From Faecalibacillus intestinalis (lineage in GTDB: Bacteria > Bacillota_I > Bacilli_A > Erysipelotrichales > Coprobacillaceae), in the NCBI RefSeq assembly GCF_003024685.1, contig NZ_PYLQ01000002.1, positions 75,062-139,061 on the forward strand: a stretch of 64,000 nucleotides of DNA, in the 5' to 3' direction. The position numbers were made by a program, and so were the translations under genes. Every line of letters starts with the position of its first letter. Position 1 is the stretch's first letter. Shown one piece after another: positions 25,959 to 49,902 of the stretch. The notes below the pieces were generated by a model. The model had not been told where the DNA came from. It searched no databases and saw only the letters and a list, made by a program, of their open reading frames with translations.

Positions 25959-25971
25959 CAAATCGGAATTT
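25959..25971 (+). repeat. att-like motif, copy 1
   Basis: CAAATCGGAATTT. It shares AATCGGAATTT with copies at 29095 and 37722 (reverse) and lies four bases after the truncated recombinase frame. It probably marks the edge of the radical-SAM cassette. Confidence 0.55.
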
Positions 25972-25995
25972 ACTTCTACTTAGACATACAAACTG

Positions 25996-26049
25996 TTGAC
26001 AGTAAAACTCCTATATAGTATTATTTGATAAAATACTATATAGGAGTTT
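25996..26049 (+). promoter_or_regulatory. Promoter with 18-bp perfect inverted repeat (MarR operator)
   Basis: -35 TTGACA (25996-26001), 17-base spacer, -10 TATTAT (26019-26024). AAACTCCTATATAGTATT (26005-26022) and AATACTATATAGGAGTTT (26032-26049) are perfect inverted arms. The left arm covers the spacer and most of the -10; the right arm contains the AGGAG ribosome site. MarR binding would shut the promoter, and in RNA the hairpin would hide the ribosome site. Confidence 0.88.
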
Positions 26050-26053
26050 TTGT

Positions 26054-26491
26054 ATGAAAATGAATGGCGGATTTCTTGTTACCAAAATAAAACAACTTGG
26101 AGATCGAATCTTTGAGAAGATTCTCAGCGAAAAGAATATTGATGCGTTTAACGGAGCCCAGGGGCGTATTCTTTATGTACTGTGGCAGGAAGATGGAATC
26201 TCAATCAGGTCACTCTCGATTAAATGTGGATTAGCGATAACTTCTCTTACTACGATGCTGGAAAGAATGGAAAATCGAGGGCTGATAAGACGCGTTCAGT
26301 CTGAAACAGACAAAAGGAAAACACTCCTGTTTCTGACTGAAAAAGCACATGCCTTAAAGGACGAATACGATTCTGTATCTGATAAAATGGGCAGTATTTA
26401 CTACAAAGGTTTTTCGAAGGAAGAAATTACCCAGTTTGAGGAATACCTCGACCGTATCAGAAAGAATCTTGAGGAGTGGCAGAAATCATGA
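26054..26491 (+). CDS. MarR-family regulator of the radical SAM mobile pair
   Basis: 145 residues with the MarR winged helix: AQGRILYVLWQEDGISIRSLSIKCGLAITSLTTMLERMENRGLIRR and the wing ETDKRKTLLFLTEKA. It is the first gene of a three-gene operon with two radical SAM proteins, overlapping the next gene by four bases (ATGA). This matches the arrangement described as the radical SAM mobile pair system, which always has a MarR-type gene. It probably represses the operon through the large inverted repeat at 26005-26049. Confidence 0.88.
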   Translation: MKMNGGFLVTKIKQLGDRIFEKILSEKNIDAFNGAQGRILYVLWQEDGISIRSLSIKCGLAITSLTTMLERMENRGLIRRVQSETDKRKTLLFLTEKAHALKDEYDSVSDKMGSIYYKGFSKEEITQFEEYLDRIRKNLEEWQKS

Positions 26492-27177
26492 GTATTTGTA
26501 TCAAAGATCAGATTCAAAACATGAATATCGTCATCGGATGTACAGTGGGGTGTGCATATTGCTATGCCCGCAATAATGTGAAACGCTGGCATATGATTGA
26601 TGACTTTGCTAACCCTGAATTCTTTCCGGGTAAGCTCAAGATGATGGAAAAAAAACGTCCGCAGAACTTTCTTCTTACCGGCATGAGCGATCTTTCCGGC
26701 TGGAAGTCAGAATGGAGAGACGAGGTATTTGAAAAAATCCGTGAAAATCCACAGCATCAGTTCCTGTTCCTTACAAAGCGACCAGATCTGCTGGATTTTG
26801 ATACAGATTTAGAAAACGCATGGTTTGGTGTTACGGTGACGAGAAAAGCAGAACTGTGGCGTATTGACGCACTACGGGAAAATGTCAGAGCAAAACACTA
26901 TCATGTTACCTTTGAGCCGCTATTCAACAATCCAGGTTCAGTTGATCTTTCCGGGATCAACTGGATCGTTGTCGGCACCATGACTGGAGTTCAGAGCAGA
27001 AAGGTTCATACGGAGCAGGAGTGGGCATGGTCTCTGACAGATCAGGCGCATATGCTTGACATTCCGGTATTTATGAAGGAAGATCTTGCCCCTATCATAG
27101 GGAATGAAAATATGATTCAGGAAATGCCGGATGAATTCAATAAAGTGTTGGAGGTACAGAGATCATGGCAGAAGTAA
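26488..27177 (+). CDS. Radical SAM mobile pair protein A (DUF5131-like)
   Basis: 229 residues from the ATG at 26488, which overlaps the MarR stop; a GTG at 26476 is a poorer start. The radical SAM cluster motif is C-x3-C-x2-C at Cys18, Cys22 and Cys25 (GCTVGCAYCYA). Later motifs (LTGMSDLSGW, FLFLTKRPD, WFGVTVTR, EPLFNNPG) match the phage Gp37/Gp68-like DUF5131 radical SAM family. It binds a 4Fe-4S cluster and S-adenosylmethionine. The substrate is unknown. It overlaps its partner by 13 bases. Family name from memory. Confidence 0.82.
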   Translation: MSICIKDQIQNMNIVIGCTVGCAYCYARNNVKRWHMIDDFANPEFFPGKLKMMEKKRPQNFLLTGMSDLSGWKSEWRDEVFEKIRENPQHQFLFLTKRPDLLDFDTDLENAWFGVTVTRKAELWRIDALRENVRAKHYHVTFEPLFNNPGSVDLSGINWIVVGTMTGVQSRKVHTEQEWAWSLTDQAHMLDIPVFMKEDLAPIIGNENMIQEMPDEFNKVLEVQRSWQK

Positions 27178-28073
27178 TAAATGGAATCCTCATTAATGAG
27201 GCGGAAACAAAGAACATCATGACCAAGTCCAGTCTGCCTGTAGGCGGTTACTCGGTCAATCCATATGTAGGCTGTACACACGCCTGCAAGTATTGCTATG
27301 CTTCTTTTATGAAGCGCTTTACCGGACACAAGGAGGAATGGGGCACTTTCCTTGATGTGAAACATTGGCCGGAAATTAAGAATCCGAAGAAATATGCCAG
27401 ACAGCGGGTGGTCATCGGTTCTGTGACAGATGGCTACAATCCACAGGAGGAGCAATTCGGGAATACCAGAAAACTTCTGGAGCAGCTGATCGGCAGTGAC
27501 GCAGATATTCTAATCTGCACAAAGTCGGATCTTGTGGTACGAGATATTGATCTGCTGAAGAAGCTTGGACGAGTAACCGTTTCATGGTCGATCAACACAC
27601 TAGATGAAAATTTCAAGAACGATATGGACTCTGCTTCTAGCATTGAGCGCCGTATCGCTGCTATGAAGCAGGTATATGAAGCAGGTATCCGTACAGTCTG
27701 TTTCGTATCTCCGGTATTCCCCGGTATCACGAATTTTGAAGCAATCTTTGAGCGGGTAAAGGATCAGTGCGATCTGTTCTGGCTCGAAAATCTCAATCTT
27801 CGAGGCGGTTTCAAAAAGACAATTATGGATTATATCGCCGGAAAATATCCTGATCTTGTACCACTTTACGACGAGATCTATAACAAGCATAACCGCAGCT
27901 ACTTTGAAGCACTTGAAGTAAAAGCTGAGGAAATGGCTAAGAAGTATGATTGCCCATTTGTGGATAATGAAATGCCTTATGGTAGAGTCCCGCAGGGACA
28001 TCCGGTGATCGTAGATTATTTCTATCATGAGGAAATCCGAGGGACAGAGAATACAGGAAAAAGAAATCGTTAA
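27165..28073 (+). CDS. Radical SAM mobile pair protein B (SPL-like)
   Basis: 302 residues. Cys37, Cys41 and Cys44 form C-x3-C-x2-C (GCTHACKYCYASF). The barrel (VVIGSVTDGYNPQE, ILICTKSDLVVRDIDLL, VTVSWSINTLD, ENLNLRGG) is that of spore-photoproduct-lyase-like radical SAM enzymes. GGAGG precedes the ATG, which lies inside the end of protein A. Two radical SAM enzymes with a MarR regulator on a mobile element recur across Firmicutes, with unknown substrate; repair of modified DNA or RNA is a guess from the SPL likeness. Confidence 0.82.
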   Translation: MAEVINGILINEAETKNIMTKSSLPVGGYSVNPYVGCTHACKYCYASFMKRFTGHKEEWGTFLDVKHWPEIKNPKKYARQRVVIGSVTDGYNPQEEQFGNTRKLLEQLIGSDADILICTKSDLVVRDIDLLKKLGRVTVSWSINTLDENFKNDMDSASSIERRIAAMKQVYEAGIRTVCFVSPVFPGITNFEAIFERVKDQCDLFWLENLNLRGGFKKTIMDYIAGKYPDLVPLYDEIYNKHNRSYFEALEVKAEEMAKKYDCPFVDNEMPYGRVPQGHPVIVDYFYHEEIRGTENTGKRNR

Positions 28074-28181
28074 TCTAAATGAAAATTAAACTGATGATGG
28101 TGGAGAGATTTATTTATCGCCATTTGAAATCGAAAAGTTCTTGTTTGAAAAATAGAGAAATTGTAAAATTGAAGAAAAAAG

Positions 28182-28221
28182 AAATGCACAGTTCTTAGCT
28201 TATCGAGAGCTGTGCATTTTT
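28182..28221 (+). terminator. Terminator of the radical SAM operon
   Basis: AAATGCACAG (28182-28191) pairs with CTGTGCATTT (28210-28219) and is followed by T-rich sequence. It also could serve the convergent cupin gene. Confidence 0.75.
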
Positions 28222-28239
28222 GTAAATAAATACTTTTAA

Positions 28240-28593
28240 TTAGCCGATTACGGCGTCCTCTGCTGTAAAATGTTCCAGAGAATTTTCTTTTACCTGAATG
28301 CAGATATAAGTAATTCCGGAAATATCGGATGCAAAAAACTGACGCTTTGCAGCAGGTGCGATTTTTAGCCAGTCTCCAGTTGAAAGGCTGATTTCTTCTC
28401 CATCAATTATTGCTTTGCCGTTACCTGAAAGAATTCCATAGATTTCTTCATTTTCTTTATGAGAATGAACAAATGGGACATTTGCTCCTGCAGGTAGTTC
28501 GTTTAAACTGATTTCTGAACCTGTTAAAGACAACTTTTCATGCAGCTCAATTCGGTTTTCCTTTCCAATAGTTGTTTTTGTGTAATTTGTCAT
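28240..28593 (-). CDS. Small cupin-domain protein
   Basis: 117 residues, one beta-barrel cupin. Motif 1 resembles PFVHSHKENEEIYGILSGNGKAI (two His and Glu as metal ligands) and motif 2 follows at LSTGDWLKIAPAAKRQFFA. Single-cupin proteins next to HxlR regulators often handle toxic aldehydes or act as quinone-related enzymes; the exact role is unknown. It is divergent from the HxlR gene. A GGAGGT ribosome site precedes the ATG. Confidence 0.82.
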   Translation of the reverse strand: MTNYTKTTIGKENRIELHEKLSLTGSEISLNELPAGANVPFVHSHKENEEIYGILSGNGKAIIDGEEISLSTGDWLKIAPAAKRQFFASDISGITYICIQVKENSLEHFTAEDAVIG

Positions 28594-28639
28594 AATAATA
28601 CCTCCATAGTTGATTTGTAGTTTCTAATTACATGGCATT

Positions 28640-28668
28640 AGTATAGTGTGAGACACATACAAAAACAA
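28640..28668 (-). promoter_or_regulatory. Promoter of the cupin gene with HxlR-type site beside it
   Basis: Minus strand: -35 TTGTTT (28668-28663), 17-base spacer, -10 TATACT (28645-28640). An AAGTACGCACC stretch just upstream (from about 28667), with TTGTAACTGCAC following on the plus strand, is the likely HxlR-binding region shared with the divergent regulator. Confidence 0.7.
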
Positions 28669-28735
28669 GTACGCACCTTTTTGTAACTGCACACTCAAAA
28701 TTGAATGTGTTACAATAGACTCGGAGGTGAGAATT

Positions 28736-29068
28736 ATGCGAGCAAAAGAAGAATTACCGGAATGCCCAGTTGCAACAGCAGTATCTCTCATCGGAGGAAA
28801 ATGGAAACTGCTGATTTTGCGTAACTTGAAAGAGCGCCCATGGAGATTCAATGAGCTACAACGAAGTATAGATGGTATTTCACAAAAGGTTTTGACAGAT
28901 AGTTTAAGACAAATGATGAGTGATGGACTGGCATATCGCCACGATTACCATGAGCAGCCACCGAGAGTTGAATACGGATTAACGGAACTCGGAACAAAAA
29001 TGCTTCCAATTGTTAATTCACTTGCTGACTTTGGTAACTACTATAAATCACTTTTTGAACAAAATTAA
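28736..29068 (+). CDS. HxlR-family transcriptional regulator
   Basis: 110 residues from the ATG at 28736 with CGGAGGTGA upstream; a GTG at 28727 overlaps that site. Typical HxlR: conserved early Cys (ELPECPVATAVSLIGGKWKLLILRNL), then FNELQRSIDGISQKVLTDSLRQMMSDGL and wing YGLTELGTKML. The single Cys may sense aldehydes or redox state. It is divergent from the cupin gene. The integrase end of IME1 begins a few tens of bases after its stop. Confidence 0.9.
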   Translation: MRAKEELPECPVATAVSLIGGKWKLLILRNLKERPWRFNELQRSIDGISQKVLTDSLRQMMSDGLAYRHDYHEQPPRVEYGLTELGTKMLPIVNSLADFGNYYKSLFEQN

Positions 29069-29094
29069 GTACGTTAGTATTTGAAAAGCTCGAA

Positions 29095-29113
29095 CAATCG
29101 GAATTTGTGGAGA
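29095..29113 (+). repeat. att-like motif, copy 2 (left end of IME1)
   Basis: CAATCGGAATTTGTGGAGA, direct repeat of the site at 37502-37520 with two mismatches. It lies about 120 bases from the integrase stop, as expected for a tyrosine-integrase element end. Confidence 0.65.
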
Positions 29114-29177
29114 GATTTCCTGAACTTTCCTTATTTTACAGGCTTTTCAGCCCATTAAATAGTGAAATGATATGTAT

Positions 29178-29227
29178 TTTCCCTTATTTTTGCCCTTATG
29201 CGGAATCCGCAAGGGAAATAAGGGAAA
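29178..29227. terminator. Integrase terminator and arm-type repeats
   Basis: TTTCCCTTATTT (29178-29189) and AAATAAGGGAAA (29216-29227) pair perfectly, with inner GCCCTTATGCGG/CCGCAAGGG. The AAGGGAAATAAGGG units recur at the other end of IME1 and at both ends of IME2, so they are likely integrase arm-binding sites as well. Confidence 0.6.
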
Positions 29228-29234
29228 TTTTTAG

Positions 29235-30530
29235 TTAAGCATTGCTCGCTACTTTATCAAGAAGTCTTGCGGAATCCCGTTTTGCTTTTCTTGTTGAGTG
29301 AGCGTAAATATTCATTGTGGTACTGACATCAGAGTGTCCTAACAGTTCCTGTACATCTTTCGGTGCAGCTCCATTGGAAAGCAGATTGCTGGTATAAGTG
29401 TGACGCAACTGGTGAAAATGGAAATCTTCAAATCCTTCCAGCTTCTTTGCCACTGATCTGCATACAATGCTGAGTGTACTCGGCAGTTCCAAAGAGCCAT
29501 CTGGTCGCAGGCAGACAAAGGAGATTTCTTTGTAATCTGTCGGGACTTCCTGTGTTCCGTCAAGATGATAGTATTCATAATATACCCTGTTTTTCACATG
29601 CACTTCTTTGTAGTAATTGCGGTGATATAATTCGCCATACTGCATCCGGTTTTTGAGCTGTTCTTTTCTGGCAGCTTTCAGTATTTCAGTCAGCGTATCT
29701 CCAAAATCAACAATCCTTACTTTTTTCCGTTTCGTTGGTCCGATAATATTTTTGTGTTTCATGCCGTCGTAGCGGATACTGCGTTTTATGGTCAGGCATT
29801 GTTCCTCAAGGTTAATGTCCTGCCATGTAAGACCACAGGTTTCCCCGATACGGAGCCCGGCATAATACGCAATTTGAATCGGAAGAATAGCAGGTGGATT
29901 TTTCTTTTCCAGATATTGGATAAGCCGTTCATAATCCTCATGTGAAATCGGCTGTGTACCTTCTTCCACTTCATCATCGGAAAAGAGGTCAACTTCCTCT
30001 GCCTGCTTTTTCAGCTTAATATACTGCATCGGATTGAAACTGATTAACTGTTTTGGAAATACTGCAAAACGGAATGACTGCTGTAACACTGCGGAAAAAG
30101 AATGGATATAATCTTTGCTGTATCCCTTTTTTACTTTCCCGTCTGGAAACTCACCACCGAATGTAAGCAGATCAAGAAATGCCTGTAAATGTTCGGCAGT
30201 AACTGTTTTCAGTTTGCGGTCTGCAATCGGGTGTTTTTTGATACATCGGATTGCACCAAGATAATTTTCCACTGTACCGTTGCTGAGTGTCCCAGTTTTC
30301 AGTTCTTCTTCTGCCCACATATCCAGAAGTTCCCCTACGGTAAGATTATCTGCCTTTGCAACAAACTTCTTATCTTCGTAGTCTTCCAGTGCCTTGCGGA
30401 GAAGCTTTTCCGTCTCACTTTTACTTTCGGTTCCGGCGTATTCTTTCTGAACCATTTTACCGCTTGCATCTTCTACATAGAAACGATAGTACCATTTTTT
30501 TCCTTTTTTTCTAACAGATCCTTTTGCCAT
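29235..30530 (-). CDS. Tn916-type tyrosine integrase of IME1
   Basis: 431 residues from the ATG at 30530, preceded by AAAGGAG; a longer upstream frame is unlikely. N-terminal arm-binding sheet (KGKKWYYRFYVEDASGK), SAM-like core-binding domain (about 60-165), catalytic domain with Arg in YYAGLRIGETCGL, HQLRHTYTSNLL (His373, Arg376), LLGHSD (His399) and nucleophile Tyr at about 409 (MNIYAHST). It integrates and, with excisionase, excises the element. All catalytic residues are present. Closely related to the integrase at 48469-49764. Confidence 0.93.
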   Translation of the reverse strand: MAKGSVRKKGKKWYYRFYVEDASGKMVQKEYAGTESKSETEKLLRKALEDYEDKKFVAKADNLTVGELLDMWAEEELKTGTLSNGTVENYLGAIRCIKKHPIADRKLKTVTAEHLQAFLDLLTFGGEFPDGKVKKGYSKDYIHSFSAVLQQSFRFAVFPKQLISFNPMQYIKLKKQAEEVDLFSDDEVEEGTQPISHEDYERLIQYLEKKNPPAILPIQIAYYAGLRIGETCGLTWQDINLEEQCLTIKRSIRYDGMKHKNIIGPTKRKKVRIVDFGDTLTEILKAARKEQLKNRMQYGELYHRNYYKEVHVKNRVYYEYYHLDGTQEVPTDYKEISFVCLRPDGSLELPSTLSIVCRSVAKKLEGFEDFHFHQLRHTYTSNLLSNGAAPKDVQELLGHSDVSTTMNIYAHSTRKAKRDSARLLDKVASNA

Positions 30531-30595
30531 AATCGTATGTCTCCTTTCGATATCAGACAATCGGAACTGCTGAAATGCTTCTTGCGTGTAGGCAT

Positions 30596-30615
30596 CTTAT
30601 GGACAAGTCCATAAG
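30596..30615. repeat. Palindrome resembling an oriT arm
   Basis: CTTATGGAC (30596-30604) and GTCCATAAG (30607-30615) form a perfect 9-bp dyad with a two-base centre. ACTTATGGAC also occurs at the oriT (32239-32248). It lies in about 60 extra bases between the integrase and XRE genes that IME2 lacks. Confidence 0.5.
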
Positions 30616-30690
30616 CCAATTCGCCGCTCGTCAAATCTGTAAACAGCTTGACTCGCTTGCGCTCATTGTATCATAACTCCGATTATCTTA

Positions 30691-31320
30691 CTATACCGAT
30701 TCAGAATCGTCATACATAACTTCGGATAAAAGATTTGCAAGCCTTTGTTCTGCCGCTTCCGGTTTCTTTGAATAGAGCCTTACAACATCTGCCATATCAT
30801 TAAATGCGTTGACAGTATGTGTGATCTCCCTGAGAAACATAATCTCATTATATTCATCTTTCGATTCAAATCCCATTACTTTGGCAATGTCCGCATCTTT
30901 GGTACTGCCTTTGTAATTTTTACAGGCGAACTGAAACGAATCCAGAAACAGTTCATATTGCTTTAACATTAACAGCAGTAAGTCTTTAGAAAAAGCGTCT
31001 TCTGTTTTATTGAGGTCAAGAGGAAACTGTTTGAGAATGTCGCCCATCGCATCACGAATCTGCAATTCTTTCTTATCCGTAATATCAGTTTCATATTCAT
31101 CGGTTTCCCCTTTGAGCCATTCAATCGATACATGAAGTGCTTCCGAAAGACCTTCCAGTACCATCTTTTTGGTATTGTCAATCGAACCATTCTCATAACG
31201 CAGGATTGTGGAAGCGGTAACTCCCATCTTCTCTGCGACATAAGGCTGTGTCAGATTTAATTCCAGACGGCGCTGTTTTGCCCTGCTGCCGATCAGCTTG
31301 CGTAGTTCTTTATCTTTCAT
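30691..31320 (-). CDS. XRE-family switch regulator of IME1
   Basis: 209 residues from the ATG at 31320 (MKDKELRKLIGSRAKQ), with AAAGGAGG upstream. Helix-turn-helix at about 8-60 (LNLTQPYVAEKMGVTASTILRYENGSIDNTKKMVLEGLSEAL). The C-terminal helical part is unique to these elements. It lies between integrase and excisionase, divergent from the latter. The dyad TTGCATATTGCAA overlaps the -35 of its own promoter, so it probably represses itself and the excisionase. Confidence 0.85.
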   Translation of the reverse strand: MKDKELRKLIGSRAKQRRLELNLTQPYVAEKMGVTASTILRYENGSIDNTKKMVLEGLSEALHVSIEWLKGETDEYETDITDKKELQIRDAMGDILKQFPLDLNKTEDAFSKDLLLLMLKQYELFLDSFQFACKNYKGSTKDADIAKVMGFESKDEYNEIMFLREITHTVNAFNDMADVVRLYSKKPEAAEQRLANLLSEVMYDDSESV

Positions 31321-31351
31321 GCTGATGTGCCTCCTTTTTCGGTATGTCATT

Positions 31352-31387
31352 ACTATACCACGCAACAAAATATATTGCAATATGCAA
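31352..31387 (-). promoter_or_regulatory. XRE promoter and operator, IME1
   Basis: Minus strand: -35 TTGCAA (31380-31375), 17-base spacer, -10 TATAGT (31357-31352). The dyad TTGCATATTGCAA (31387-31375) includes the -35. The same dyad stands at the same place in IME2. Confidence 0.85.
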
Positions 31388-31418
31388 TTTTAAGAAAAGC
31401 AGCAAAATTTCATAATGC

Positions 31419-31476
31419 TTGACAAAGCAATATAAACACGCTATACTGACAGCACAAATAAAATTGCATAATGCAA
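31419..31476 (+). promoter_or_regulatory. Excisionase promoter and operator, IME1
   Basis: -35 TTGACA (31419-31424), 17-base spacer, -10 TATACT (31442-31447), then dyad TTGCATAATGCAA (31464-31476) in the leader, just before the AAAGGAGG ribosome site. Repressor bound to the dyad would block transcription of the excision and mobilization genes. Confidence 0.85.
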
Positions 31477-31495
31477 TTCGAAAGGAGGTGGTCAT

Positions 31496-31726
31496 ATGAC
31501 GCAAAGAAAGATTGCCTTATCTATTGAGGAAGCTGCTGATTATACGGGAATTGGCAGGAACACCCTGCGAAAGTTGGTAGAGTGGAAGAAACTTCCGGTA
31601 TTGAAGGTTGGGAGAAAAGTCCTGATCAAAACGGATATGCTGGAACTTTTTATGGAAGCCAACGAGGGCAGGGACTTGAGGGATAAGGGAAATGTGAAAG
31701 CAGTCACAAGAAACGGTTCAACTTAA
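31496..31726 (+). CDS. Excisionase (helix-turn-helix, Tn916 Xis type) of IME1
   Basis: 76 residues: MTQRKIALSIEEAADYTGIG and then RNTLRKLVEWKKLPVLKVGRKVLI, a winged helix of the excisionase/MerR-like family. It bends DNA and steers the integrase toward excision. The first ATG has an AAAGGAGG site. It is 93% or so identical by eye to the IME2 copy at 47351-47581. It is transcribed away from integrase, toward the mobilization genes. Confidence 0.88.
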   Translation: MTQRKIALSIEEAADYTGIGRNTLRKLVEWKKLPVLKVGRKVLIKTDMLELFMEANEGRDLRDKGNVKAVTRNGST

Positions 31727-31870
31727 AAAAGCGGTTCCCGAAGAAACCGCCAAAGGTTCTATCAGACCGGAGTCATGATATACCTACACGCAAGCAGATT
31801 ATACCATGTACTTCGTCTGACAGACAACAGGAAACTTATGTTTGGAAAAAAAGAAAGGACGATGATATTT

Positions 31871-32185
31871 ATGGCAAGATCAACAAAGAGTTATGAGGAG
31901 CGTATGCTCCAGTTGGAAAAGAAAGAACAGGAAAGCCTTGAGAAAGCAAAACAGTATGCAGCACAGAAACGGGAACTGAAGAAACGTCAGAAAGATGTGG
32001 AAACCAAAAAACGGACACACAGGCTCTGCCAGATTGGCGGTGCAGTGGAATCGGTACTGGGTTCTGCGATTGAGGAAGATGATATCCCAAAGCTGATCGG
32101 CTTCTTAAAAAGGCAGGAAGCAAATGGGAAATTCTTCTCAAAGGCAATGCAGAAAGAGCCAGTTGCAAATACGGAGGAAGTGTAA
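31871..32185 (+). CDS. Small DUF3847-like mobilization accessory protein
   Basis: 104 residues from the ATG at 31871 (MARSTKSYEERML), the start used by the IME2 copy; upstream in-frame sequence lacks conservation. A charged N-terminal helix (LEKKEQESLEKAKQYAAQKRELKKRQ) precedes RTHRLCQIGGAVESVLG and IPKLIGFLKRQEANG. This resembles small proteins found before MobA/MobL genes in many Clostridial elements, probably MobC-like oriT helpers. The family name is tentative. It ends exactly at the oriT segment (TAATG junction). Confidence 0.7.
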   Translation: MARSTKSYEERMLQLEKKEQESLEKAKQYAAQKRELKKRQKDVETKKRTHRLCQIGGAVESVLGSAIEEDDIPKLIGFLKRQEANGKFFSKAMQKEPVANTEEV

Positions 32186-32470
32186 TGCCGGAGGGAGTGG
32201 AGTTTCCATTCCCTTCATTGCTTTTTTATGAAGGGCGCACTTATGGACAACCAGAGGTCGTCCGTATAAGTTTGCCACAGGTGGCAACCGGTCTGCGCTT
32301 ACGCTTGCCGGGCTCGTTCCGTCGGCGGGGCTTTCAGCCAGACCTGCTCATGCCGCAGGAGGCACTCTTCGCCAGAGGGGCACATTCCATGCAGGCTGTT
32401 ATGCACAGGGCACTCTTACGCAGAGGGTGCTCCGGCAGATACCATTTTCTTTTAGGAAAAACGTTACCTG
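32185..32470 (-). other. oriT: oriT region of IME1 with IncQ-type nic
   Basis: On the minus strand TAAGTGCGCCCT (32243-32232) matches the IncQ/MOBQ nic consensus, with an imperfect hairpin upstream (ACTTATACGGAC / GTCCATAAGT) and a TTGCCAC/GTGGCAA dyad beyond. About 250 bases here are nearly identical to the IME2 copy, much more so than the flanking genes. An ORF of 117 codons (32185-32538) overlaps the segment in both elements. The DNA-level conservation suggests it is mainly a DNA site, but translation is not excluded. Confidence 0.8.
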
Positions 32471-32513
32471 CCGGAAATCAAAGCCGGATACGGCAGAATG
32501 GGGGAAACGGAGC

Positions 32514-34235: not shown

Positions 34236-34923
34236 GTATGAAAAAGCAGAGCAGGAAAAACTTTATGCACAGACACACCAAAAGACGGTAGAGGTAGCTG
34301 TTGAGAAAAAAGTGCCTTATGAGAAATGTGAAAAATGTGACCGTACTGCTTACCGGAAAGCAAAAGAAAAATGCGATAGCCGTAAAAGCCAGTTAGAAAA
34401 GAAATATAAAAATATGACGATTGGTTATGAAAGTATCTTGTTTCTACTGGCATGGTACAGCATAACAACAACACTGTTTACTGCGATTCTTTCGCCGGTT
34501 TTCCTTAACGACTGTATCGTCTTTTTCGGTGCGTTAGGAAAAGGAATGGGAAGTTTATTTCGGGAGTTTGTGACAGGTGCAGACTCTTTCGGACAGTTAA
34601 GCAGTGGAATACCTAACAGTATTCTTTCCGGGATTGTGTACTGGCTGATTGCCGGTACTGTCATGGCAATTTTATTCGTAATAACCGGGTGGCTGATAAT
34701 CGGGATTGGTTATCAGGTAGGAAAAATCTACCGGAAATATTGTTGGGATATCATCAGTATCGTGGTAGCGATAACGAGTACAGCTGTTGTAATTTACTTT
34801 GGAGAATGGATTAAAAACGCTAATCCGATAAATCTTATTGTATTGCTATTACTGTCGCATATTATTTATATTGGAATCAGATGTTATGTGAAAGACTGGA
34901 TGGAAGAACGAGGATATTATTAA
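33955..34923 (+). CDS. Membrane protein with coiled-coil N-terminus overlapping the relaxase end
   Basis: 322 residues, 18 bases after the 119-residue gene and in the same frame; the first 280 bases overlap the relaxase. Coiled coil at about 10-105, a Cys pair motif YEKCEKCDRTAYRKAKEKC, then about four membrane helices (SILFLLAWYSITTTLFTAIL, SGIVYWLIAGTVMAILFVIT, ISIVVAITSTAVVIYF, NLIVLLLLSHIIYIG). A GAGGGAG site precedes the ATG. It may link the relaxosome to the helper secretion channel at the membrane, as IncQ MobB does. The function is inferred. Confidence 0.75.
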   Translation: MSECRNLENVGQVEELLLMTEQMQDELDQKDQTIQELNRQLSESLTLNEKLNSENRAENIEALRTRLRQTEERLTSETDSRKRADAEAVAWKFKYEKAEQEKLYAQTHQKTVEVAVEKKVPYEKCEKCDRTAYRKAKEKCDSRKSQLEKKYKNMTIGYESILFLLAWYSITTTLFTAILSPVFLNDCIVFFGALGKGMGSLFREFVTGADSFGQLSSGIPNSILSGIVYWLIAGTVMAILFVITGWLIIGIGYQVGKIYRKYCWDIISIVVAITSTAVVIYFGEWIKNANPINLIVLLLLSHIIYIGIRCYVKDWMEERGYY

Positions 34924-34927
34924 AAGA

Positions 34928-34957
34928 GGACAGGGAAATTTCATAATCTTCCTGTCC
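34928..34957 (+). terminator. Hairpin after the IME1 mobilization genes
   Basis: GGACAGG (34928-34934) pairs with CCTGTCC (34951-34957), four bases after the stop codon. The T tail is weak (TTAG), so termination may be partial. Confidence 0.45.
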
Positions 34958-37520: not shown

Positions 37521-37525
37521 AGACA

Positions 37526-40915: not shown

Positions 40916-40958
40916 GGCTTTATCAACAGATAGAAAGCCTTGAAAGGAGCATTTGAAT

Positions 40959-41624
40959 ATGAGCATTTTACAAACAATCGACTTAAAGAAGTATTACGGC
41001 ACAGAACCAAATATTACTCGTGCCCTTAATGGTGTAAATTTTACTGTGGAACAGGGAGAATTTGTTGCCGTAGTTGGAACTTCCGGCAGCGGTAAGTCTA
41101 CATTGCTTCACATGATGGGAGGACTTGATACCCCCACTTCCGGCAGCGTGATTGTACGGGGAGAAGAACTCGCAAAAAAGAATGATGATGAATTGACAAT
41201 TTTCCGCCGTCGTAACATCGGATTTATCTTCCAAAATTATAATCTGGTTCCGATTTTGAATGTATATGAAAATATCGTCCTGCCTGTGGAACTGGATGGC
41301 GATACAGTAGACCAGAAATTTATGGACGAAGTTGTGTATATGTTGGCTTTAGAAGATAAACTGGAAAATATGCCGAACAATCTTTCAGGCGGTCAACAGC
41401 AACGTGTAGCGATTGCACGAGCTTTAATTACGAAGCCTGCGATTATCCTTGCTGATGAACCGACCGGAAATCTTGATAGCAAGACCAGTGCAGATGTGTT
41501 AGGGCTTTTGAAGCATACCAGCGGAGAATTTAATCAGACCATTGTAATGATTACTCACAACAACGAGATCGCTCAACTCGCAGACCGCATTGTACGGATT
41601 GAAGATGGTAAAATTGTTGGCTAA
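40959..41624 (+). CDS. ABC transporter ATP-binding protein
   Basis: 221 residues from the ATG at 40959, AAAGGAGC upstream. Walker [11 protein letters not shown]-loop [10 protein letters not shown], signature [15 protein letters not shown], Walker [12 protein letters not shown], His switch ITHNNE. This is the MacB/BceA/LolD type that energises FtsX-like permeases. It is followed 14 bases later by its permease. It is likely to give resistance or sensing toward a cell-envelope antimicrobial. Confidence 0.93.
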
Positions 41625-41638
41625 AGGAGGTGGGAATT

Positions 41639-43966: not shown

Positions 43967-44022
43967 TGATAGAAAGCTTTTCATATCTCGGTCAGCTCCA
44001 CAATTACATTACTCTGCTGATA

Positions 44023-44064
44023 CAGCCAGTCCGTAAATTCTTTCGGGCTGGCTGTTCCTGTTTT
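44023..44064 (+). terminator. Terminator of the ABC operon
   Basis: CAGCCAGTCCG (44023-44033) pairs with CGGGCTGGCTG (44044-44054), one G-U pair, followed by TTCCTGTTTTT. A further dyad TACTGT-CTAT-ACAGTA lies at about 44134-44150, before the convergent gene, with unclear role. Confidence 0.7.
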
Positions 44065-44161
44065 TACAGCCTTTTTTCTCTGTAATACTTCTTTTCATAC
44101 AGTAAATTTTCACTAGGCTGGTATGGAGTAATTTTACTGTCTATACAGTAAGTTGAAAATA

Positions 44162-45127
44162 CTAATATGGTCTTTTTTCTAACCAAACTTTAAGATAACA
44201 TCTAATTCCAACATATGCGCCCTGCGAAAGTACGAAAAGCAATAGAAGATTTACTGACAGTACTTTTTTGATTGATTCTCCAAAATAAATGACAATAGCA
44301 ACACTTGTCAGTATCATTAGTAGAGTAATAACATCCCAACAGTTTTTCTTATATAATTCTATAACCTTTATTTCTATCAGTATCGCCAGCATCCCTGTTC
44401 CTGCCATACATATTCCTACAATCAATATTAGCAATAACCAATATACCATTCCGGCTATAAAAGCATTTGGAATTTTTGTACTAATCTGTGCCGCAGAATG
44501 CCCGGCATCAATCGTCCATCCGACAAAGGTTTGTATGAATGATGCTAAATCATTGAAGAATGATTTACAATCGACAAGGAACATATCTGACTGTACTGCC
44601 TGAAAAAGAGTGGTTGTCAATGAATACCATGCAAGAAGGAACAAGGTTGTTTGGAACATTACCGTTTTTGCTTTATACTGTCCTGCAAGTCGCTCTTTTT
44701 GTGTTTCGTATTTTGCTTTTGCATTCTGATAGGCTGTCCGGTTACAGGCTTCACATTTTTCATAGAGTACCGGCTTTTCTACCGGTATTTCTACGATTTT
44801 CTGATGTGTCCGGGCATAATCCCGTTCCTGTGTTAAATAGCATATTTTATCTTGACATTCCTCTATCATGACGTTTGCGCTTCGCAACTTCTCTTTCTCG
44901 ATCCGCAATGCTCTGTCTGCCAGCTTCAAGTCGTTCTTTAATGCTTGAATATTCCCGACTCTGTTCTCTTTGTTTAATTTCTCGTTCAAGGTCAGAGATT
45001 CGCTGAGCTGCGTCTTCAGTTCCACGATAAGCTGTTCTTTCTGTTCTAGTTCTTCTTGTATCTCCTCGGTCAAGAGCAGAAGTTCTTCCAACTGTTCGGC
45101 GTTCTTTGATTCTCTGGATTCGTTCAT
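44162..45127 (-). CDS. Membrane protein with coiled-coil N-terminus, IME2 copy
   Basis: 321 residues, counterpart of 33955-34923. Coiled coil at about 8-100, Cys motif YEKCEACNRTAYQNAKAKYE, then four or so membrane helices (TLFLLAWYSLTTTLFQAV, AGMVYWLLLILIVGICMAGTG, VITLLMILTSVAIVIYFGE, NLLLLFVLSQGAYVG). Its first part overlaps the relaxase in another frame. Conserved between the two elements in length and topology, so it is a real gene. Likely role in relaxosome docking (inference). Confidence 0.75.
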   Translation of the reverse strand: MNESRESKNAEQLEELLLLTEEIQEELEQKEQLIVELKTQLSESLTLNEKLNKENRVGNIQALKNDLKLADRALRIEKEKLRSANVMIEECQDKICYLTQERDYARTHQKIVEIPVEKPVLYEKCEACNRTAYQNAKAKYETQKERLAGQYKAKTVMFQTTLFLLAWYSLTTTLFQAVQSDMFLVDCKSFFNDLASFIQTFVGWTIDAGHSAAQISTKIPNAFIAGMVYWLLLILIVGICMAGTGMLAILIEIKVIELYKKNCWDVITLLMILTSVAIVIYFGESIKKVLSVNLLLLFVLSQGAYVGIRCYLKVWLEKRPY

Positions 45128-46568
45128 CTATATCACGTCCTTTCTCTATCTGCTGTTCCAGTTCAGCAATTCGGTGTTCTGTTTCAGTAATAAACTGTTT
45201 TCGCTGTTCAGCTTCTGTGCCAATTTCTGCCATTGCTGATTTTCGTTTTCCAAAAGCTCTATCTTCGTTTTCTGTTCTTCCATCTTGGAAAGCAGTTCCT
45301 CGGTATTTGGCAAAATGTTGAGCAGCTCGGTTAACTCGTTGTTTAATTTTTGTAATTTCTGATTCTGTTTTTGCATAAGAGAGAGTTGAGTGTCCCGGTT
45401 CTGCATTTCCAGAATCATTTCTGCCATTAGGTTCTGCTGTTCTTCGATTTGACCAATCATGGATTCCATTAAGGGTATAATTTCCCGGCTTTCTTCTAAT
45501 GTCATTTAATCGCTCCTTCCATAATGATAATGCACCCGATACTTTCCCAAAGGTGTTTAGTATCTTTTGCAATAACGTGTTTTGTTGTTTTATGATTTGA
45601 TTTTCCGCTACTTTCCACGAGCCTTTTATTTCCTGCCCGGCAAAAAACTTTTGTTCAATCTTTCTTGCGTCAGCTCCTTCATGGATGGTAGGAATCTGGA
45701 GTTTTCCCTGCTTTTCATAAGAACGATGATCAACTTGATTATGCAAAGGCAGATGTTCATTACATACCTTTGCCCATTCACTCCGCCACAGTTCACAATT
45801 TTTTGGATTGTTCCATCCAGTAGCATCGGTCAGCACCCGTTTCCATTGCAGGCGGTTTCTTGCTCCAATCTTCTGAATTCCGTTTTCGTCTAATACAGGG
45901 ATACGGATTCCATGACGGTCAGGGTTTTTCTTATCCTGCCACCAGTTCGGATGGGATTCATCAATCACGATATTTCCGTTTTTATCTCTGACAAAATCCC
46001 AATCCTTGACTTCTTTCTTTCCCCAAGAATGATCCGGGTTAAAAGGACGCATAGTTAGAAGCAGATGGACATGGGGGTTGCCATCCCCTTTGTCGTGGAT
46101 ACTCCAATCAGCGCACATTCCTCTATCTACAAAAGTTTTTTGGATATAGTCGGTTGTATATTGAATTTGTTCCTGTCTGCTCCATTCTTTGGGGAGGGCA
46201 AATTCAAATGACCTGCCAAGTTGGGCATCTGCATTTTTTTCAATCTTCAATACCTCATTCCATAACCTCTGTTTTTGAAATGTGATTTTAAATTTTTTTA
46301 TAGCAGCTTCTTTATCTTCTGACCTTTTGTATCGGACAGACTTTTGAAAGCGTTTTATATTTTCCTCTGGTACTATCTGCCATTCAGAAGGTGCGTTTTC
46401 GCACATCATCAGACTGGTGTAGACCACTTCTTTTTTAGAAGTGTAATAACTGATACTCCCGGTTTCTTCGTTTTTCATCACATCCCCATTGAGATATGCA
46501 GAAGCGGAGATAACAGATTTTCCTTTACTTCGTCCGACTATTTTGATTGTGTAATGAAAAATCGCCAT
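44847..46568 (-). CDS. MobA/MobL-family (MOBQ) relaxase of IME2
   Basis: 573 residues from the ATG at 46568 with AGGAGGAA upstream. MAIFHYTIKIVGRSKGKSV start, SASAYLNGDVMKNEETG and the HVH metal site in GDGNPHVHLLLTM. The N-terminal 350 residues are very close to the IME1 relaxase; the C-terminal third diverges more while the overlapping frame stays conserved. It nicks the IncQ-type oriT at 46838-46849. Confidence 0.92.
   Translation of the reverse strand: MAIFHYTIKIVGRSKGKSVISASAYLNGDVMKNEETGSISYYTSKKEVVYTSLMMCENAPSEWQIVPEENIKRFQKSVRYKRSEDKEAAIKKFKITFQKQRLWNEVLKIEKNADAQLGRSFEFALPKEWSRQEQIQYTTDYIQKTFVDRGMCADWSIHDKGDGNPHVHLLLTMRPFNPDHSWGKKEVKDWDFVRDKNGNIVIDESHPNWWQDKKNPDRHGIRIPVLDENGIQKIGARNRLQWKRVLTDATGWNNPKNCELWRSEWAKVCNEHLPLHNQVDHRSYEKQGKLQIPTIHEGADARKIEQKFFAGQEIKGSWKVAENQIIKQQNTLLQKILNTFGKVSGALSLWKERLNDIRRKPGNYTLNGIHDWSNRRTAEPNGRNDSGNAEPGHSTLSYAKTESEITKIKQRVNRAAQHFAKYRGTAFQDGRTENEDRAFGKRKSAMAEIGTEAEQRKQFITETEHRIAELEQQIEKGRDIDERIQRIKERRTVGRTSALDRGDTRRTRTERTAYRGTEDAAQRISDLEREIKQREQSREYSSIKERLEAGRQSIADREREVAKRKRHDRGMSR
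45146..45505 (-). CDS. Coiled-coil protein inside the relaxase gene, IME2 copy
   Basis: 119 residues starting MTLEESREIIPLMESM, with ATG and AAGGAG upstream. Same length, position and stop as the IME1 copy at 33577-33936, about 71% identical by hand alignment. Almost all coiled coil, Gln- and Leu-rich, ending LLNWNSR. Eighteen bases separate it from the membrane protein gene in the same frame. Confidence 0.75.
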   Translation of the reverse strand: MTLEESREIIPLMESMIGQIEEQQNLMAEMILEMQNRDTQLSLMQKQNQKLQKLNNELTELLNILPNTEELLSKMEEQKTKIELLENENQQWQKLAQKLNSENSLLLKQNTELLNWNSR

Positions 46569-46609
46569 GTCTGGATTCCTCCTTTCTGCACATCCGGCAT
46601 AGATTTCCG

Positions 46610-46895
46610 GCAACATTGCTTTCAATTTTAGAAAAAGCAGCATTGCCGGAACGCCCTCTGCGTAAGAGTGCCCTGCGCATAGCAGTCTGCATGGAATGCG
46701 CCCCTCTGGCGAAGAGTGCCTCCTGCGGCATGAGCAGGTCTGGCTGAAAGCCCCGCCGACGGAACGAGCCCGGCAAGCGTGAGCGCAGACCGGTTGCCAC
46801 TTGTGGCAAACTTATTGGGACGACCTCTGGTTGTCCATAAGTGCGCCCTTCATGAAAAAGCAATGAAGGGAATGAAAAACTCATCCCCTCCGCCA
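46610..46895 (+). other. oriT: oriT region of IME2 with IncQ-type nic
   Basis: TAAGTGCGCCCT at 46838-46849 on the plus strand is the IncQ/MOBQ nic consensus. Upstream are the imperfect stem ACTTATTGGGAC / GTCCATAAGT and the dyad TTGCCAC/GTGGCAA near 46794-46809. The roughly 250-base block continues to about 46640 and is nearly identical to the IME1 copy. A 123-codon ORF (46525-46896, minus) runs through it, matching the IME1 ORF. Confidence 0.8.
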
Positions 46896-47210
46896 TTACA
46901 CTTCCTCCATATCGGTATTGGCTTCTTTCTGCATTGCCTTTGAGAAAAACTTCCCATTGGCTTCCTGCCTTTTCAGAAAACCAATCAGCTTTGGGATGTC
47001 TTCCTCCTCAATAGGTGCACCAAGAACGGATTCCACTGCACCGCCAATCTGACAGAGCCTATGGGTTCGTTTTTTACTTTCTTCGGCTTTCTTTCGTTTC
47101 AGAAGTTCTTTCTTCTGTGTTGCATATCTTTTCGCCTTTTCAAGGCTTTCCTGTTCCTTCTTTTCCATTTCAAGCATTCGTTCTTCATAACTTTTTGTTG
47201 ATTTTGCCAT
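46896..47210 (-). CDS. Small DUF3847-like mobilization accessory protein, IME2 copy
   Basis: 104 residues, MAKSTKSYEERMLEMEKKEQ start. Charged helix followed by KRTHRLCQIGGAVESVLGA and IPKLIGFLKRQEANGKFFSKAM, as in IME1 (31871-32185). A GGGGAATG-type site precedes the ATG. Its stop overlaps the start of the oriT ORF. Probably binds oriT or the relaxase; not proven. Family name tentative. Confidence 0.7.
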   Translation of the reverse strand: MAKSTKSYEERMLEMEKKEQESLEKAKRYATQKKELLKRKKAEESKKRTHRLCQIGGAVESVLGAPIEEEDIPKLIGFLKRQEANGKFFSKAMQKEANTDMEEV

Positions 47211-47350
47211 GATTACATTCCCCTTTCTTTTGCAAACATAAGTTCTCGGTTGCGTATCAGAAGAAGCACATGGTATAATCTTCTTGCGTGTAGGTATATC
47301 ATGGCTTCGGTCTGATAGAACCTTTGGCGGTTTCTTTGGAAGCCGCCTTT

Positions 47351-47581
47351 TTAATTTGCCGCAGTTCTTGTTACGGCTTTTACATTTCCTCTATCCCTCA
47401 AATCACGACCTTCATTCGCTTCCATAAACATTTCCAGAATATCGGTTTTAATCAGGACTTTGCGACCAACCTTTAATACTGGAAGTTTCTTCCATTCTAC
47501 AAGCTGTCTTAAGGTATTTCTGCCGATTCCCGTATAATCAGCAGCTTCTTCGATGGATAATGCAATTTTTCTTTGCGTCAT
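47351..47581 (-). CDS. Excisionase of IME2
   Basis: 76 residues, nearly identical to the IME1 excisionase (differences include RQL for RKL, DIL for DML and the last residues). Winged-helix excisionase family. AGGAGG precedes the ATG. It is transcribed from the promoter at 47627-47655 and runs toward the mobilization genes. Confidence 0.88.
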   Translation of the reverse strand: MTQRKIALSIEEAADYTGIGRNTLRQLVEWKKLPVLKVGRKVLIKTDILEMFMEANEGRDLRDRGNVKAVTRTAAN

Positions 47582-47600
47582 ATAATCACCTCCTTATAAA

Positions 47601-47655
47601 TTGCATTATGCAATTCTTGTGATGTAAGTATATCCTTTCCAAATCTTTTTGTCAA
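47601..47655 (-). promoter_or_regulatory. Excisionase promoter and operator, IME2
   Basis: Minus strand: -35 TTGACA (47655-47650), 17-base spacer, -10 TATACT (47632-47627), then the dyad TTGCATAATGCAA (47613-47601) between the start point and the ribosome site. Same design as IME1. Confidence 0.85.
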
Positions 47656-47686
47656 GCGTTACGAAATATTAAAAATAATTTTTATA

Positions 47687-47722
47687 TTGCATATTGCAAT
47701 TTCAGAAAAACAATGCTATAAT
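47687..47722 (+). promoter_or_regulatory. XRE promoter and operator, IME2
   Basis: Dyad TTGCATATTGCAA (47687-47699) contains the -35 TTGCAA (47694-47699); 17-base spacer; -10 TATAAT (47717-47722). Auto-repression is likely. Confidence 0.85.
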
Positions 47723-47752
47723 TCATACATACCGAAAAAGGAGGCAGTCAGC

Positions 47753-48382
47753 ATGAAAGATAAAGAACTACGCAAGCTGATAGGCAGCAGAATAAAACAG
47801 CGCCGTCTGGAATTGAATCTGACACAGCCTTATGTCGCAGAAAAGATGGGTGTTACCGCTTCTACAATCCTGCGTTATGAGAATGGTTCGATTGACAATA
47901 CGAAAAAAATGGTGCTGGAAGGTCTTTCGGAAGCACTCCATGTATCCGTGGAATGGCTCAAAGGGGAAACAGATGAATATGAAACCGACATTACGGATAA
48001 GAGAGAATTACAGATTCGTGATGCGATGGGAGATATTCTGGAACAGTTACCGCTTGCCCTTACCAAAGAAGAAGATGCTTTTTCAAAAGATTTATTACTG
48101 CTGATGTTAAAACAATATGGTCTGTTTTTGGATTCCTTCCAGTTCGCCTGCAAAAACTTCAAGGGAAATGCTGGTCAGACGGATATTGCCAAAACAATAG
48201 GGTTTGAATCGAATGATGAATATAATGAGATTATGTTCTTAAGGGAAATCACTCCTACCATCAATGCTTTTAATGAGATGGCAGACATTGTAAGGCTCTA
48301 TTCCAAGAAACAAAAAACAGCAGAACAAAGGCTTGCAAATCTTTTATCAGAAGTCTTATACGAAGATTCCGAATCGGTATAG
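47753..48382 (+). CDS. XRE-family switch regulator of IME2
   Basis: 209 residues from the ATG at 47753 with AAAAGGAGG upstream. Same helix-turn-helix as the IME1 protein (LTQPYVAEKMGVTASTILRYENGSIDN), diverging mainly in the C-terminal half. It is divergent from excisionase and precedes integrase. It likely holds the element in the integrated state by repressing excisionase. Confidence 0.85.
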   Translation: MKDKELRKLIGSRIKQRRLELNLTQPYVAEKMGVTASTILRYENGSIDNTKKMVLEGLSEALHVSVEWLKGETDEYETDITDKRELQIRDAMGDILEQLPLALTKEEDAFSKDLLLLMLKQYGLFLDSFQFACKNFKGNAGQTDIAKTIGFESNDEYNEIMFLREITPTINAFNEMADIVRLYSKKQKTAEQRLANLLSEVLYEDSESV

Positions 48383-48468
48383 TAAGACAACCGGAGTTAT
48401 GATATACTTACACGCACGAAGCATTTCATCAGTTCCGATTGTCTAATATCGAAAGGAGACATACGATT

Positions 48469-49764
48469 ATGGCAAAAGGATCTGTAAGAAAAAAAGGAAA
48501 GAAATGGTACTACCGCTTCTATGTAGAGGACGCAAGCGGCAATCTTGTTCAGAAAGAATGCGTTGGAACAGAAAGCAAAAGTGGAACTGAAAAGCTGCTC
48601 CGTCAGGCAATGGATGATTATGAGAAAAAGAAATTTGTTGCCAAAGCGGAAAATCTCACAGTCGGACAACTTCTGGATGTGTGGGCAGAGGAGGAATTAA
48701 AAACAGGTACGCTCAGCAATGGTACGGTGGAGAATTACCTCGGAACAATCCGAAATATTAAGAAACACCCATTGGCAGAACGGAAACTGAAAAATGTAAC
48801 CTCTGAACATTCGCAATCCTTTTTTGATTTGCTTTCCTTCGGGGGAGTTCATCCCGACGGAAAAGAGAGAAAGGGTTACAGCAAAGATTACATCCATTCT
48901 TTTTCCGCAGTCATGCAGCAGTCCTTCCGCTTTGCAGTATTTCCAAAACAGTATATTACGTTTAATCCCATGCAGTATATTAAACTGCGGTATCAGACGG
49001 ATGAAGTTGATTTGTTTTCAGACGAGGACATGGACGGAAATATCCAACCAATTTCACGAGAAGATTATGAAAGATTGCTTGCTTATCTGAAAAAAAAGAA
49101 CCCAGCCGCAATACTTCCAATCCAGATAGCCTATTATGCCGGGCTTCGTATTGGAGAAGCCTGCGGTTTGGCGTGGCAGGACGTAAATCTGGAAGAACAA
49201 TGCCTTACCATAAGACGTAGCATCCGATACGATGGCTCAAAGCGCAAATATATCATCGGACCAACCAAGCGGAAAAAAGTGAGGATTGTTGATTTTGGAG
49301 ATACGCTGGTAGAGATTTTCCGTAATGCCCGGAAAGAGCAGTTAAAAAATCGAATGCAGTACGGAGAACTTTATCACACGAACTACTACAAAGCGGTCAA
49401 AGAGAAAAACAGAGTGTACTACGAATATTATTGCTTAGACAGAACAGAGGAAGTCCCGGCAGATTATAAAGAAATTTCTTTCGTCTGTTTAAGACCGGAT
49501 GGTTGTCTGGAACTTCCAACTACTTTGGGGACTGTTTGCAGAAAGGTGGCAAAAACATTAGAGGGATTTGAAGGCTTTCATTTCCACCAGTTACGTCACA
49601 CCTATACAAGCAACCTTTTAGCAAATGGAGCTGCCCCAAAAGATGTGCAGGAACTGTTAGGACACTCAGATGTAAGTACCACAATGAATGTCTATGCTCA
49701 CTCCACAAGAGATGCTAAACGAAAATCAGTTAGGCTTCTTGATAAAGTGGTAGGCAATGATTAA
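48469..49764 (+). CDS. Tn916-type tyrosine integrase of IME2
   Basis: 431 residues from the ATG at 48469, AAAGGAG upstream. Arm-binding sheet KGKKWYYRFYVEDASGN, catalytic Arg in YYAGLRIGEACGL, HQLRHTYTSNLL, LLGHSD and Tyr in TTMNVYAHST, all present. Closely related to the IME1 integrase, differing throughout. It lies about 125 bases from the att-like end of IME2. Confidence 0.93.
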   Translation: MAKGSVRKKGKKWYYRFYVEDASGNLVQKECVGTESKSGTEKLLRQAMDDYEKKKFVAKAENLTVGQLLDVWAEEELKTGTLSNGTVENYLGTIRNIKKHPLAERKLKNVTSEHSQSFFDLLSFGGVHPDGKERKGYSKDYIHSFSAVMQQSFRFAVFPKQYITFNPMQYIKLRYQTDEVDLFSDEDMDGNIQPISREDYERLLAYLKKKNPAAILPIQIAYYAGLRIGEACGLAWQDVNLEEQCLTIRRSIRYDGSKRKYIIGPTKRKKVRIVDFGDTLVEIFRNARKEQLKNRMQYGELYHTNYYKAVKEKNRVYYEYYCLDRTEEVPADYKEISFVCLRPDGCLELPTTLGTVCRKVAKTLEGFEGFHFHQLRHTYTSNLLANGAAPKDVQELLGHSDVSTTMNVYAHSTRDAKRKSVRLLDKVVGND

Positions 49765-49769
49765 AAAAA

Positions 49770-49817
49770 TTCCCTTATTTCCCTTGTGATTATCTCATAA
49801 GGGTAAAAATAAGGGAA
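49770..49817. terminator. Integrase terminator and arm-type repeats, IME2
   Basis: TTCCCTTATTT (49770-49780) pairs with AAATAAGGGAA (49807-49817), with inner CCCTTGTGA/TCATAAGGG. The same AAGGGAAATAAGGG units occur at all four IME ends. Confidence 0.6.
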
Positions 49818-49889
49818 ACTACATATCATTTCACTAATGGACAGGCGGGAAAGCCTATAAAATGGGGAAAGTTAGAGAGATAATTATAT

Positions 49890-49902
49890 AAATTCCAGTT
49901 TG
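49890..49902 (+). repeat. att-like motif, copy 6 (integrase end of IME2)
   Basis: AAATTCCAGTTTG, matching copy 5 over 11 bases. The IME1 integrase end aligns to this region from ATATCATTTCACTA (49826) to about here and then diverges, which supports a boundary. Confidence 0.6.

Follow-up and report, generated by a model that had tools for sequence, protein, structure and literature searches.

Organisation of the island

The stretch of DNA analysed here, referred to as the window, comprises 64,000 nucleotides of Faecalibacillus intestinalis (contig NZ_PYLQ01000002.1, positions 75,062 to 139,061) and carries an island in which two integrative and mobilisable elements, IME1 and IME2, are interspersed with short segments termed cassettes B, C, D1 and D2. 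The segments beside and between the IMEs contain no integrase or transfer genes and have att-like core sites at both ends. Cores bound the IMEs and the cassettes alike, the junctions vary in six bases only, and the units recur in new contexts and orders. The segments are probably gene cassettes with Tn916-type cores that are shuffled by the IME integrases, a system which resembles an integron but has neither IntI nor attC.

Core 1 (25963..25968, coupling sequence TCGGAA) forms the left end of the cassette pair BC, and it is here that other copies of B cease to match. Cassette B (25969..28073, forward strand) encodes a MarR regulator and radical SAM mobile pair A and B, and has no recombinase; the enzymes score above the curated cut-offs of TIGR04471 and TIGR04470. 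A core-like site (28138..28143, TTCTTG followed by TTTG) is the left end of cassette C and is also the edge of C in two other loci (L048 and L137; here L numbers denote loci and G numbers genomes). Cassette C (28144..29097) encodes a cupin on the reverse strand and an HxlR regulator on the forward strand. Core 2 (29098..29103, TCGGAA), set by homology junctions, separates C from the integrase end of IME1 (29104..37504, forward strand). IME1 encodes an integrase (Int, 29235-30560, reverse), an XRE regulator (30691-31380, reverse), a Tn916-like excisionase (Xis, 31496-31726), a MobA/MobL relaxase (32427-34235), and DUF6040, MarR, MATE and DUF6061 proteins. Core 3 (37505..37510, TCGGGA) joins its distal end to cassette D1 (37511..37725, forward strand), which holds one small open reading frame (ORF) starting near 37529. 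Core 4 (37726..37731, TTCCGA), placed by matrix score and homology, divides D1 from cassette D2 (37732..38304, forward strand), which encodes an XRE-family regulator, and core 5 (38305..38310, TTCCAG) divides D2 from the distal end of IME2. IME2 (38311..49892, reverse strand) is an inverted relative of IME1 that encodes a DUF6061-type ORF, a two-component system, an ABC/FtsX transporter, DUF6040, a MobA/MobL relaxase, Xis, XRE and Int (48439-49764, forward strand). Core 6 (49893..49898, TTCCAG), again placed by homology and matrix score, lies between its integrase end and a short tail.

Motif copies and homology junctions

The original prediction held that variants of one short motif mark the module edges of the island at 25959, 29095, 37502 and, in reverse, 37722, 38301 and 49890, and that the island was built up stepwise by integrases with related sites. 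All six copies were found; the copy at 25959 is CAAATCGGAATTTA and the reverse copy at 38301 is AAATTCCAGTT. Every copy is an exact start or stop of homology to other genomes. Each is a module junction as proposed, but the copy at 37722 lies inside what had been treated as a single XRE interval, which it divides into D1 and D2. The direct copies around IME1 (29095-29113 and 37502-37520) are identical at 17 of 19 positions, in agreement with the prediction. A variant of its own had been assigned to IME2, and the copies at 38301 and 49890 do differ, but the core is the same and it is the coupling sequence that changes (TTCCAG versus TTCCGA). The 17/19 repeat around IME1 is imperfect because it contains the coupling sequence, which varies in Tn916-type recombination; the mismatches are not the result of decay. 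No tRNA target is present in the 64-kb window.

The motif does not stand out by number. A 14-mer allowed three or fewer mismatches has 10 matches in the window, where shuffled sequence leads one to expect 14.1. In the host genome of 2.79 Mb, AATCGGRATTTRNG allowed at most one mismatch yields eight matches and its reversed control 15. Four of the eight lie in the island, including both exact ones; the expected rarity of the motif elsewhere therefore holds for exact copies, but the count of the looser pattern is not significant. Counting was dropped as a line of evidence since the number is not above chance, and the copies are meaningful by position because every one of them falls on a homology junction. 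A 19-bp core matrix, derived mostly from other genomes, scores positions 25955, 29090, 37721, 38300 and 49888 at 12.4-27.7, and the rest of the 64 kb at 11.8 or less. When the modules were searched for in other genomes they recurred with the motif at their bounds, and homologous elements terminate at identical bases in different sites, which supports the proposed stepwise build-up.

The two IMEs

IME1 and IME2 are sister elements with integrases that are 82% identical and inverted homology across the whole backbone and both ends. They have in common the XRE regulator, the Tn916-type Xis, the MobA/MobL relaxase, DUF6040 and DUF6061, and differ in cargo, which is MarR-MATE in IME1 and the two-component system with the ABC/FtsX transporter in IME2. 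An inventory of ORFs and Pfam matches shows that both have their own integrase and relaxase and no conjugation pore genes. Int matches PF00589 (E=2.3e-28) and Xis matches the Tn916-like excisionase family PF09035 (E=8.8e-8, 32.7 bits against a cut-off of 22.9). The best solved relatives of Int are the Int chains 6emy, 6en0 and 6emz (E about 1e-11), the match spanning the C-terminal catalytic part only; we take these to be the Tn1549 Int structures of PMC5871717.

IME1 is found at 99.6-99.8% identity in three unrelated sites (L010, L011 and L012), and the cargo of IME2 is 100% identical over 5160 bp at another unrelated site (L041). The sequence of the IMEs ends at the same base in other genomes, at the integrase end and the distal end alike, and both ends have the form AAA, six variable bases, TTTG. 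At the integrase end of about 40 elements the element closes with AAA, followed by six variable bases (TTCCGA, TCCCGA, TTCCAG, TTCAAG and others) and a TTTG-like target. The coupling bases vary across ends and copies within this fixed frame, and are often unequal between the two ends of one IME (L011, L012 and L035). The integrase of Tn1549 melts the DNA at the crossover and can cope with heterology of 5-7 bp (PMC5871717).

Rejoining the flanks at L010 and L035 gives open frames of 600 bp. These are presumably HsdS and HsdR of type I restriction systems, recognised without a profile search; IMEs of this kind thus interrupt hsdS (L010) and hsdR (L035) at core-like sequences. The open frames restored by the rejoined flanks indicate that the IMEs also prefer the core as a target within genes. 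Repeats of AAGGGMAAA, in both orientations, are clustered at all four IME ends (29177-29227, 37330-37406, 38409-38485 and 49778-49818) and are probably arm sites of the integrase. No such repeats occur in cassettes B, C, D1 and D2, and the cassettes may therefore serve as core-only partners, a role loosely like that of attC towards attI.

Cassettes without an integrase

All four cassettes are found again in Lachnospiraceae, where the ends bounded by cores stay the same and the neighbours change. The original prediction overlooked that the segments between the IMEs are units without an integrase which recur independently. About 25 copies of cassette B with the same edges come from 12 genomes that carry IMEs and a sample of 397 Lachnospiraceae genomes. 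On the left, B reads outside-CAAA-(TTCCAG)-TTTGGAGAATTG, and on the right GCTAAC-(TTCMAG)-TTTG-outside; in the window, L113, L118 and L140 copies a second core slightly further in is used. The 18 left junctions have 15 distinct 8-mers on the outside, and the 17 right junctions are all distinct. Cassette C has its own pair of cores and recurs in L048, L130, L136, L137, L139, L144 and L146. The order is B-C in the window, L113, L139 and L141, and C-B in L144, L146 and L140, and B or C adjoins IME ends in six loci (L113, L116, L124, L126, L141 and L154). D1 and D2 recur separately in other genomes, D1 with different neighbours in L206, L207 and L224, and D2 at 94.5% identity with other neighbours in L205.

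The BC unit of L140 is circularly permuted; the end of C is followed by TCGGAA, B and then the start of C, with C broken by a 623-bp loss. This arrangement could reflect a circular intermediate. Single head-to-tail B matches in G172 and L149 were set aside, as they seem to be different modules with similar starts.

Breakpoints and arrays in other genomes

In the 397 genomes the flanks of B insertions recur alone, cut at the core and with varying partners. One neighbouring cassette or gene, 98-99.6% identical between copies, is followed by three different sequences past the core, and another B-flanking segment is preceded by about eight different sequences. In 22 large regions from which B, C, the IMEs and the tail had been masked, 21 of the 120 homology breakpoints fell within 15 bp of a core, compared with 0.92 expected and a maximum of five in 500 trials. 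A larger set gave 80 of 329 against 3.4 expected; it is biased, since it includes loci fetched by core-ended queries, and for this reason 21/120 is taken as the main figure.

Scanning with the matrix revealed runs of cores 0.5-4 kb apart in which the genes are mostly co-oriented and stop codons often lie just before a core. Comparison of breakpoints gave further units of 0.39-0.57 kb with cores at both ends. The exact core pattern has 104 matches against five for the reversed control in 15 genomes with arrays, and a weak excess (15 against six) in 15 others. The Int family is present in 10 of 19 genomes with B and in 29 of 378 others (p=1.3e-6, uncorrected for genome relatedness). The cargo of the arrays includes an S51 peptidase, a serpin, MsrAB, a nucleoside phosphorylase, MATE, an Lsa-type ABC-F protein and a TetM/W-family protein.

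One array (L174:454-11076, on G191:C1) consists of core-bounded segments with a nucleoside phosphorylase, MsrAB and a cupin, cassette B, and an Lsa-type ABC-F protein. A further core-bounded segment of L174 encodes a 639-aa ribosomal protection protein of the TetM/W/O/S family and a methyltransferase; we do not claim this segment as a proven cassette, as it may belong to an element like IME_Rho_tet. Leader segments of about 120-170 bp with a core at the start (e.g. TTTGYCAACTTGCCCTTTGAGAGAGG) precede many different genes (L143_right, the tail, L179, L191-L199 and L208-L213). It is possible that these segments are mobile promoters.

The outer serine recombinase element

The whole island lies inside a large serine recombinase (LSR) element (24067..50020, forward strand), missed by the original prediction, which frames everything described above. 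It splits one host ORF, which breaks off after ...NVICHSW at 24067 and resumes with ESEELYF... at 50021 (the pieces read ...NVICHSW / W-ESEELYF...). On our own reading the split gene is LysR-like, and Pfam has no match to the C-terminal piece. The termini are GGTGTAGTAAG... and ...TTTTGTTACTGG, with GG at the crossover; the element thus has an LSR gene at one end, a short core dinucleotide and defined termini. The left terminus follows unrelated DNA in G172 and G014 (L240/L241) and is succeeded there by an intact serine recombinase of 627 aa, the right terminus is present in at least nine genomes, and both termini are on one contig in G172. The homologue in L255 is intact at 627 aa, whereas the gene in the window (24476..25893, forward strand; Pfam Resolvase/Recombinase) is broken by a frameshift and an in-frame stop and has lost its 3' end, homology ending at 25893. 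The 65 bp between this truncated gene and core 1 (25894-25958) resemble the 3' end of an unrelated ORF, perhaps from a lost cassette.

The tail (49899..50020, forward strand) is the right terminal segment of the LSR element, and its right edge, tried as another core, is the LSR terminus. It recurs in at least nine genomes and in the host's own C1:190910-191036. The tail begins with a core in most other copies as well, for which reason the LSR element looks like a landing platform. The copy elsewhere in the host is part of a second remnant (C1:189397-191036, L007) made up of an IME distal end (88% identity), a piece of about 0.4 kb and the LSR right-terminal tail. In a congener (G001) the flanking genes are separated by 1.5 kb, but that genome lacks the split gene. 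LSR IMEs of the Tn4451 and IME_Rho_tet type similarly have the LSR gene near one end, a short GG core and an interrupted gene. IME_Rho_tet has 21-bp inverted termini 81-90 bp past its recombinase (PMC12904643); the element in the window is a broken outer frame.

Proposed mechanism

In the reading that best fits these observations, the motif is the core (AAA-N6-TTTG) at which the Tn916/Tn1549-type tyrosine integrase of the two inverted sister IMEs recombines DNA. The older LSR element would have acted as the platform; its right end would have supplied a core 122 bp inside the terminus, where loading began. The IME integrase, with Xis, would recombine any two cores, excising and inserting the IMEs, and may move the arm-less cassettes in trans or jointly with an adjacent IME. 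The relaxase of the IMEs would then let the set travel on the conjugation system of a helper. The expected circle junctions are GAAATCGCTAAC-N6-TTTGGAGAATTG for B and GCTCGAACAA-N6-TTTACTTC for BC.

Several observations weigh against cassette shuffling by the IME integrases. Nine of the 19 genomes with B have no close Int, and the arrays are scattered and short, with 2-6 cores each. In the BC pair of the window, B no longer has a right core that can be recognised. No true head-to-tail B junction was found in 329 genomes; the sole circle-like junction is that of L140 (G235:C22), where the end of C and TCGGAA precede B and C is also broken. Seven insertions of B tested against 397 genomes gave no precise empty site, which we attribute to both flanks being themselves shuffled.

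An explanation in which only the IMEs move, at relaxed CAAA-N6-TTTG targets, is unlikely. The DNA between IMEs would then be ordinary sequence, rejoined at cores after deletion of or recombination between IMEs, and passive cassettes would never move as units. It accords with the scattered targets of the IMEs, e.g. hsdS and hsdR, with the many cores that adjoin IME ends and with the core scar that recombination of one IME with another would leave. However, both ends of B are preserved in about 25 copies that have unrelated DNA on either side and usually no adjoining IME; C, D1, D2 and others likewise keep both ends, and repeated deletions would not regenerate the same two-ended unit at new places. 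We consider it a little less likely again that the cassettes are cis-mobilisable elements (CIMEs), that is, decayed IMEs or integrative and conjugative elements (ICEs) which kept attL and attR, accreted, and move in cis with a neighbouring IME. Accretion of CIMEs is established (PMC5704250), B and C adjoin IME ends, and L048 has the arrangement C, IME, B, IME'; the cassettes do have att-like ends and no integrase or transfer genes, but nothing marks them as products of ICE or IME decay, as they lack any remnant of an IME backbone and the arm repeats present at every IME end, and many consist of one gene, 0.2-0.6 kb long, whose stop codon is only a few bases short of the core.

The remaining alternatives dispense with recombination at the motif. 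If the edges were gene or operon boundaries kept by selection, the motif would be a terminator or promoter element, which would suit a short quasi-palindrome often found just past a stop codon. Such boundaries would require breakpoints in non-coding DNA to be unrelated to cores, and the opposite is observed; homology of 93-99% crosses non-coding DNA and ends abruptly at the core, the six inner bases vary between constant flanks, and the IMEs end at the same cores. We give this very little credence, and even less to the motif being a chance AT-rich palindrome, for although shuffled sequence yields no fewer copies than the window, every copy lies on a junction set independently by other genomes, and the comparative junctions contradict it.

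Comparison with known systems

Shuffling of cassettes by the IME integrases has points in common with several known systems. Tn916 and Tn1549 share with IME1 and IME2 a related tyrosine integrase, a Tn916-like Xis, a variable 6-bp coupling sequence, many targets and arm-type repeats near the ends (PMC5871717, PMC8138268). Their target is TTTT-N6-AAAA, whereas that of IME1 and IME2 is AAA-N6-TTTG; the latter are IMEs with a MobA/MobL relaxase, and their cores also bound cassettes without an integrase. Because the target consensus differs, the IMEs are assigned to a related integrase type and not to Tn916 itself. Accretion of CIMEs of the ICESt1 type in Streptococcus also places integrase-less, att-flanked segments beside integrative elements (PMC5704250), but these are decayed elements at one fixed target, whereas the cassettes occur in many loci and species as units of one to three genes with no relic backbone.

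Like integron arrays, the arrays are composed of promoter-gene-stop-site units, mostly co-oriented and shuffled in order with junctions at the site, and the recombinase is supplied from elsewhere. In contrast to integrons, a core of about 20 bp takes the place of attC and there is no single attI platform. An IntI integron was ruled out, since Int scores 52-58 bits on TIGR02249 against a cut-off of 265, and no attC is present at the 3' ends of the cassettes, which share only the core and have cassette-specific sequence adjoining it. The NCBI name radical SAM mobile pair (TIGR04470/TIGR04471) already says that the pair is mobile; the unit, its edges and its shuffling are defined here. This name was not found in the open-access literature searched. 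Nor did literature searches bring up any account of a cassette system of this kind in Lachnospiraceae, which is weak evidence of novelty as they covered open-access sources only.

Integrons are the textbook collectors of promoter-gene-site units, and the system described here would be a parallel one built on Tn916-type integrases. We suggest tentatively that it is a general form of cassette capture, unrelated to IntI, in Lachnospiraceae and neighbouring gut Firmicutes, in which arm-less AAA-N6-TTTG cassettes are moved in trans by Tn1549-like IME integrases and land beside essentially any core, with cargo that extends from regulators to resistance genes of the ABC-F and Tet ribosomal-protection kinds. 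The link to resistance comes from one array with TetM/W-type and Lsa-type genes in core-bounded segments. The core is a simple, searchable signature for annotating unexplained islands. If it is real, the proposed system would account for the movement between gut commensals of single genes and operons that carry no recombinase, the radical SAM mobile pair among them.

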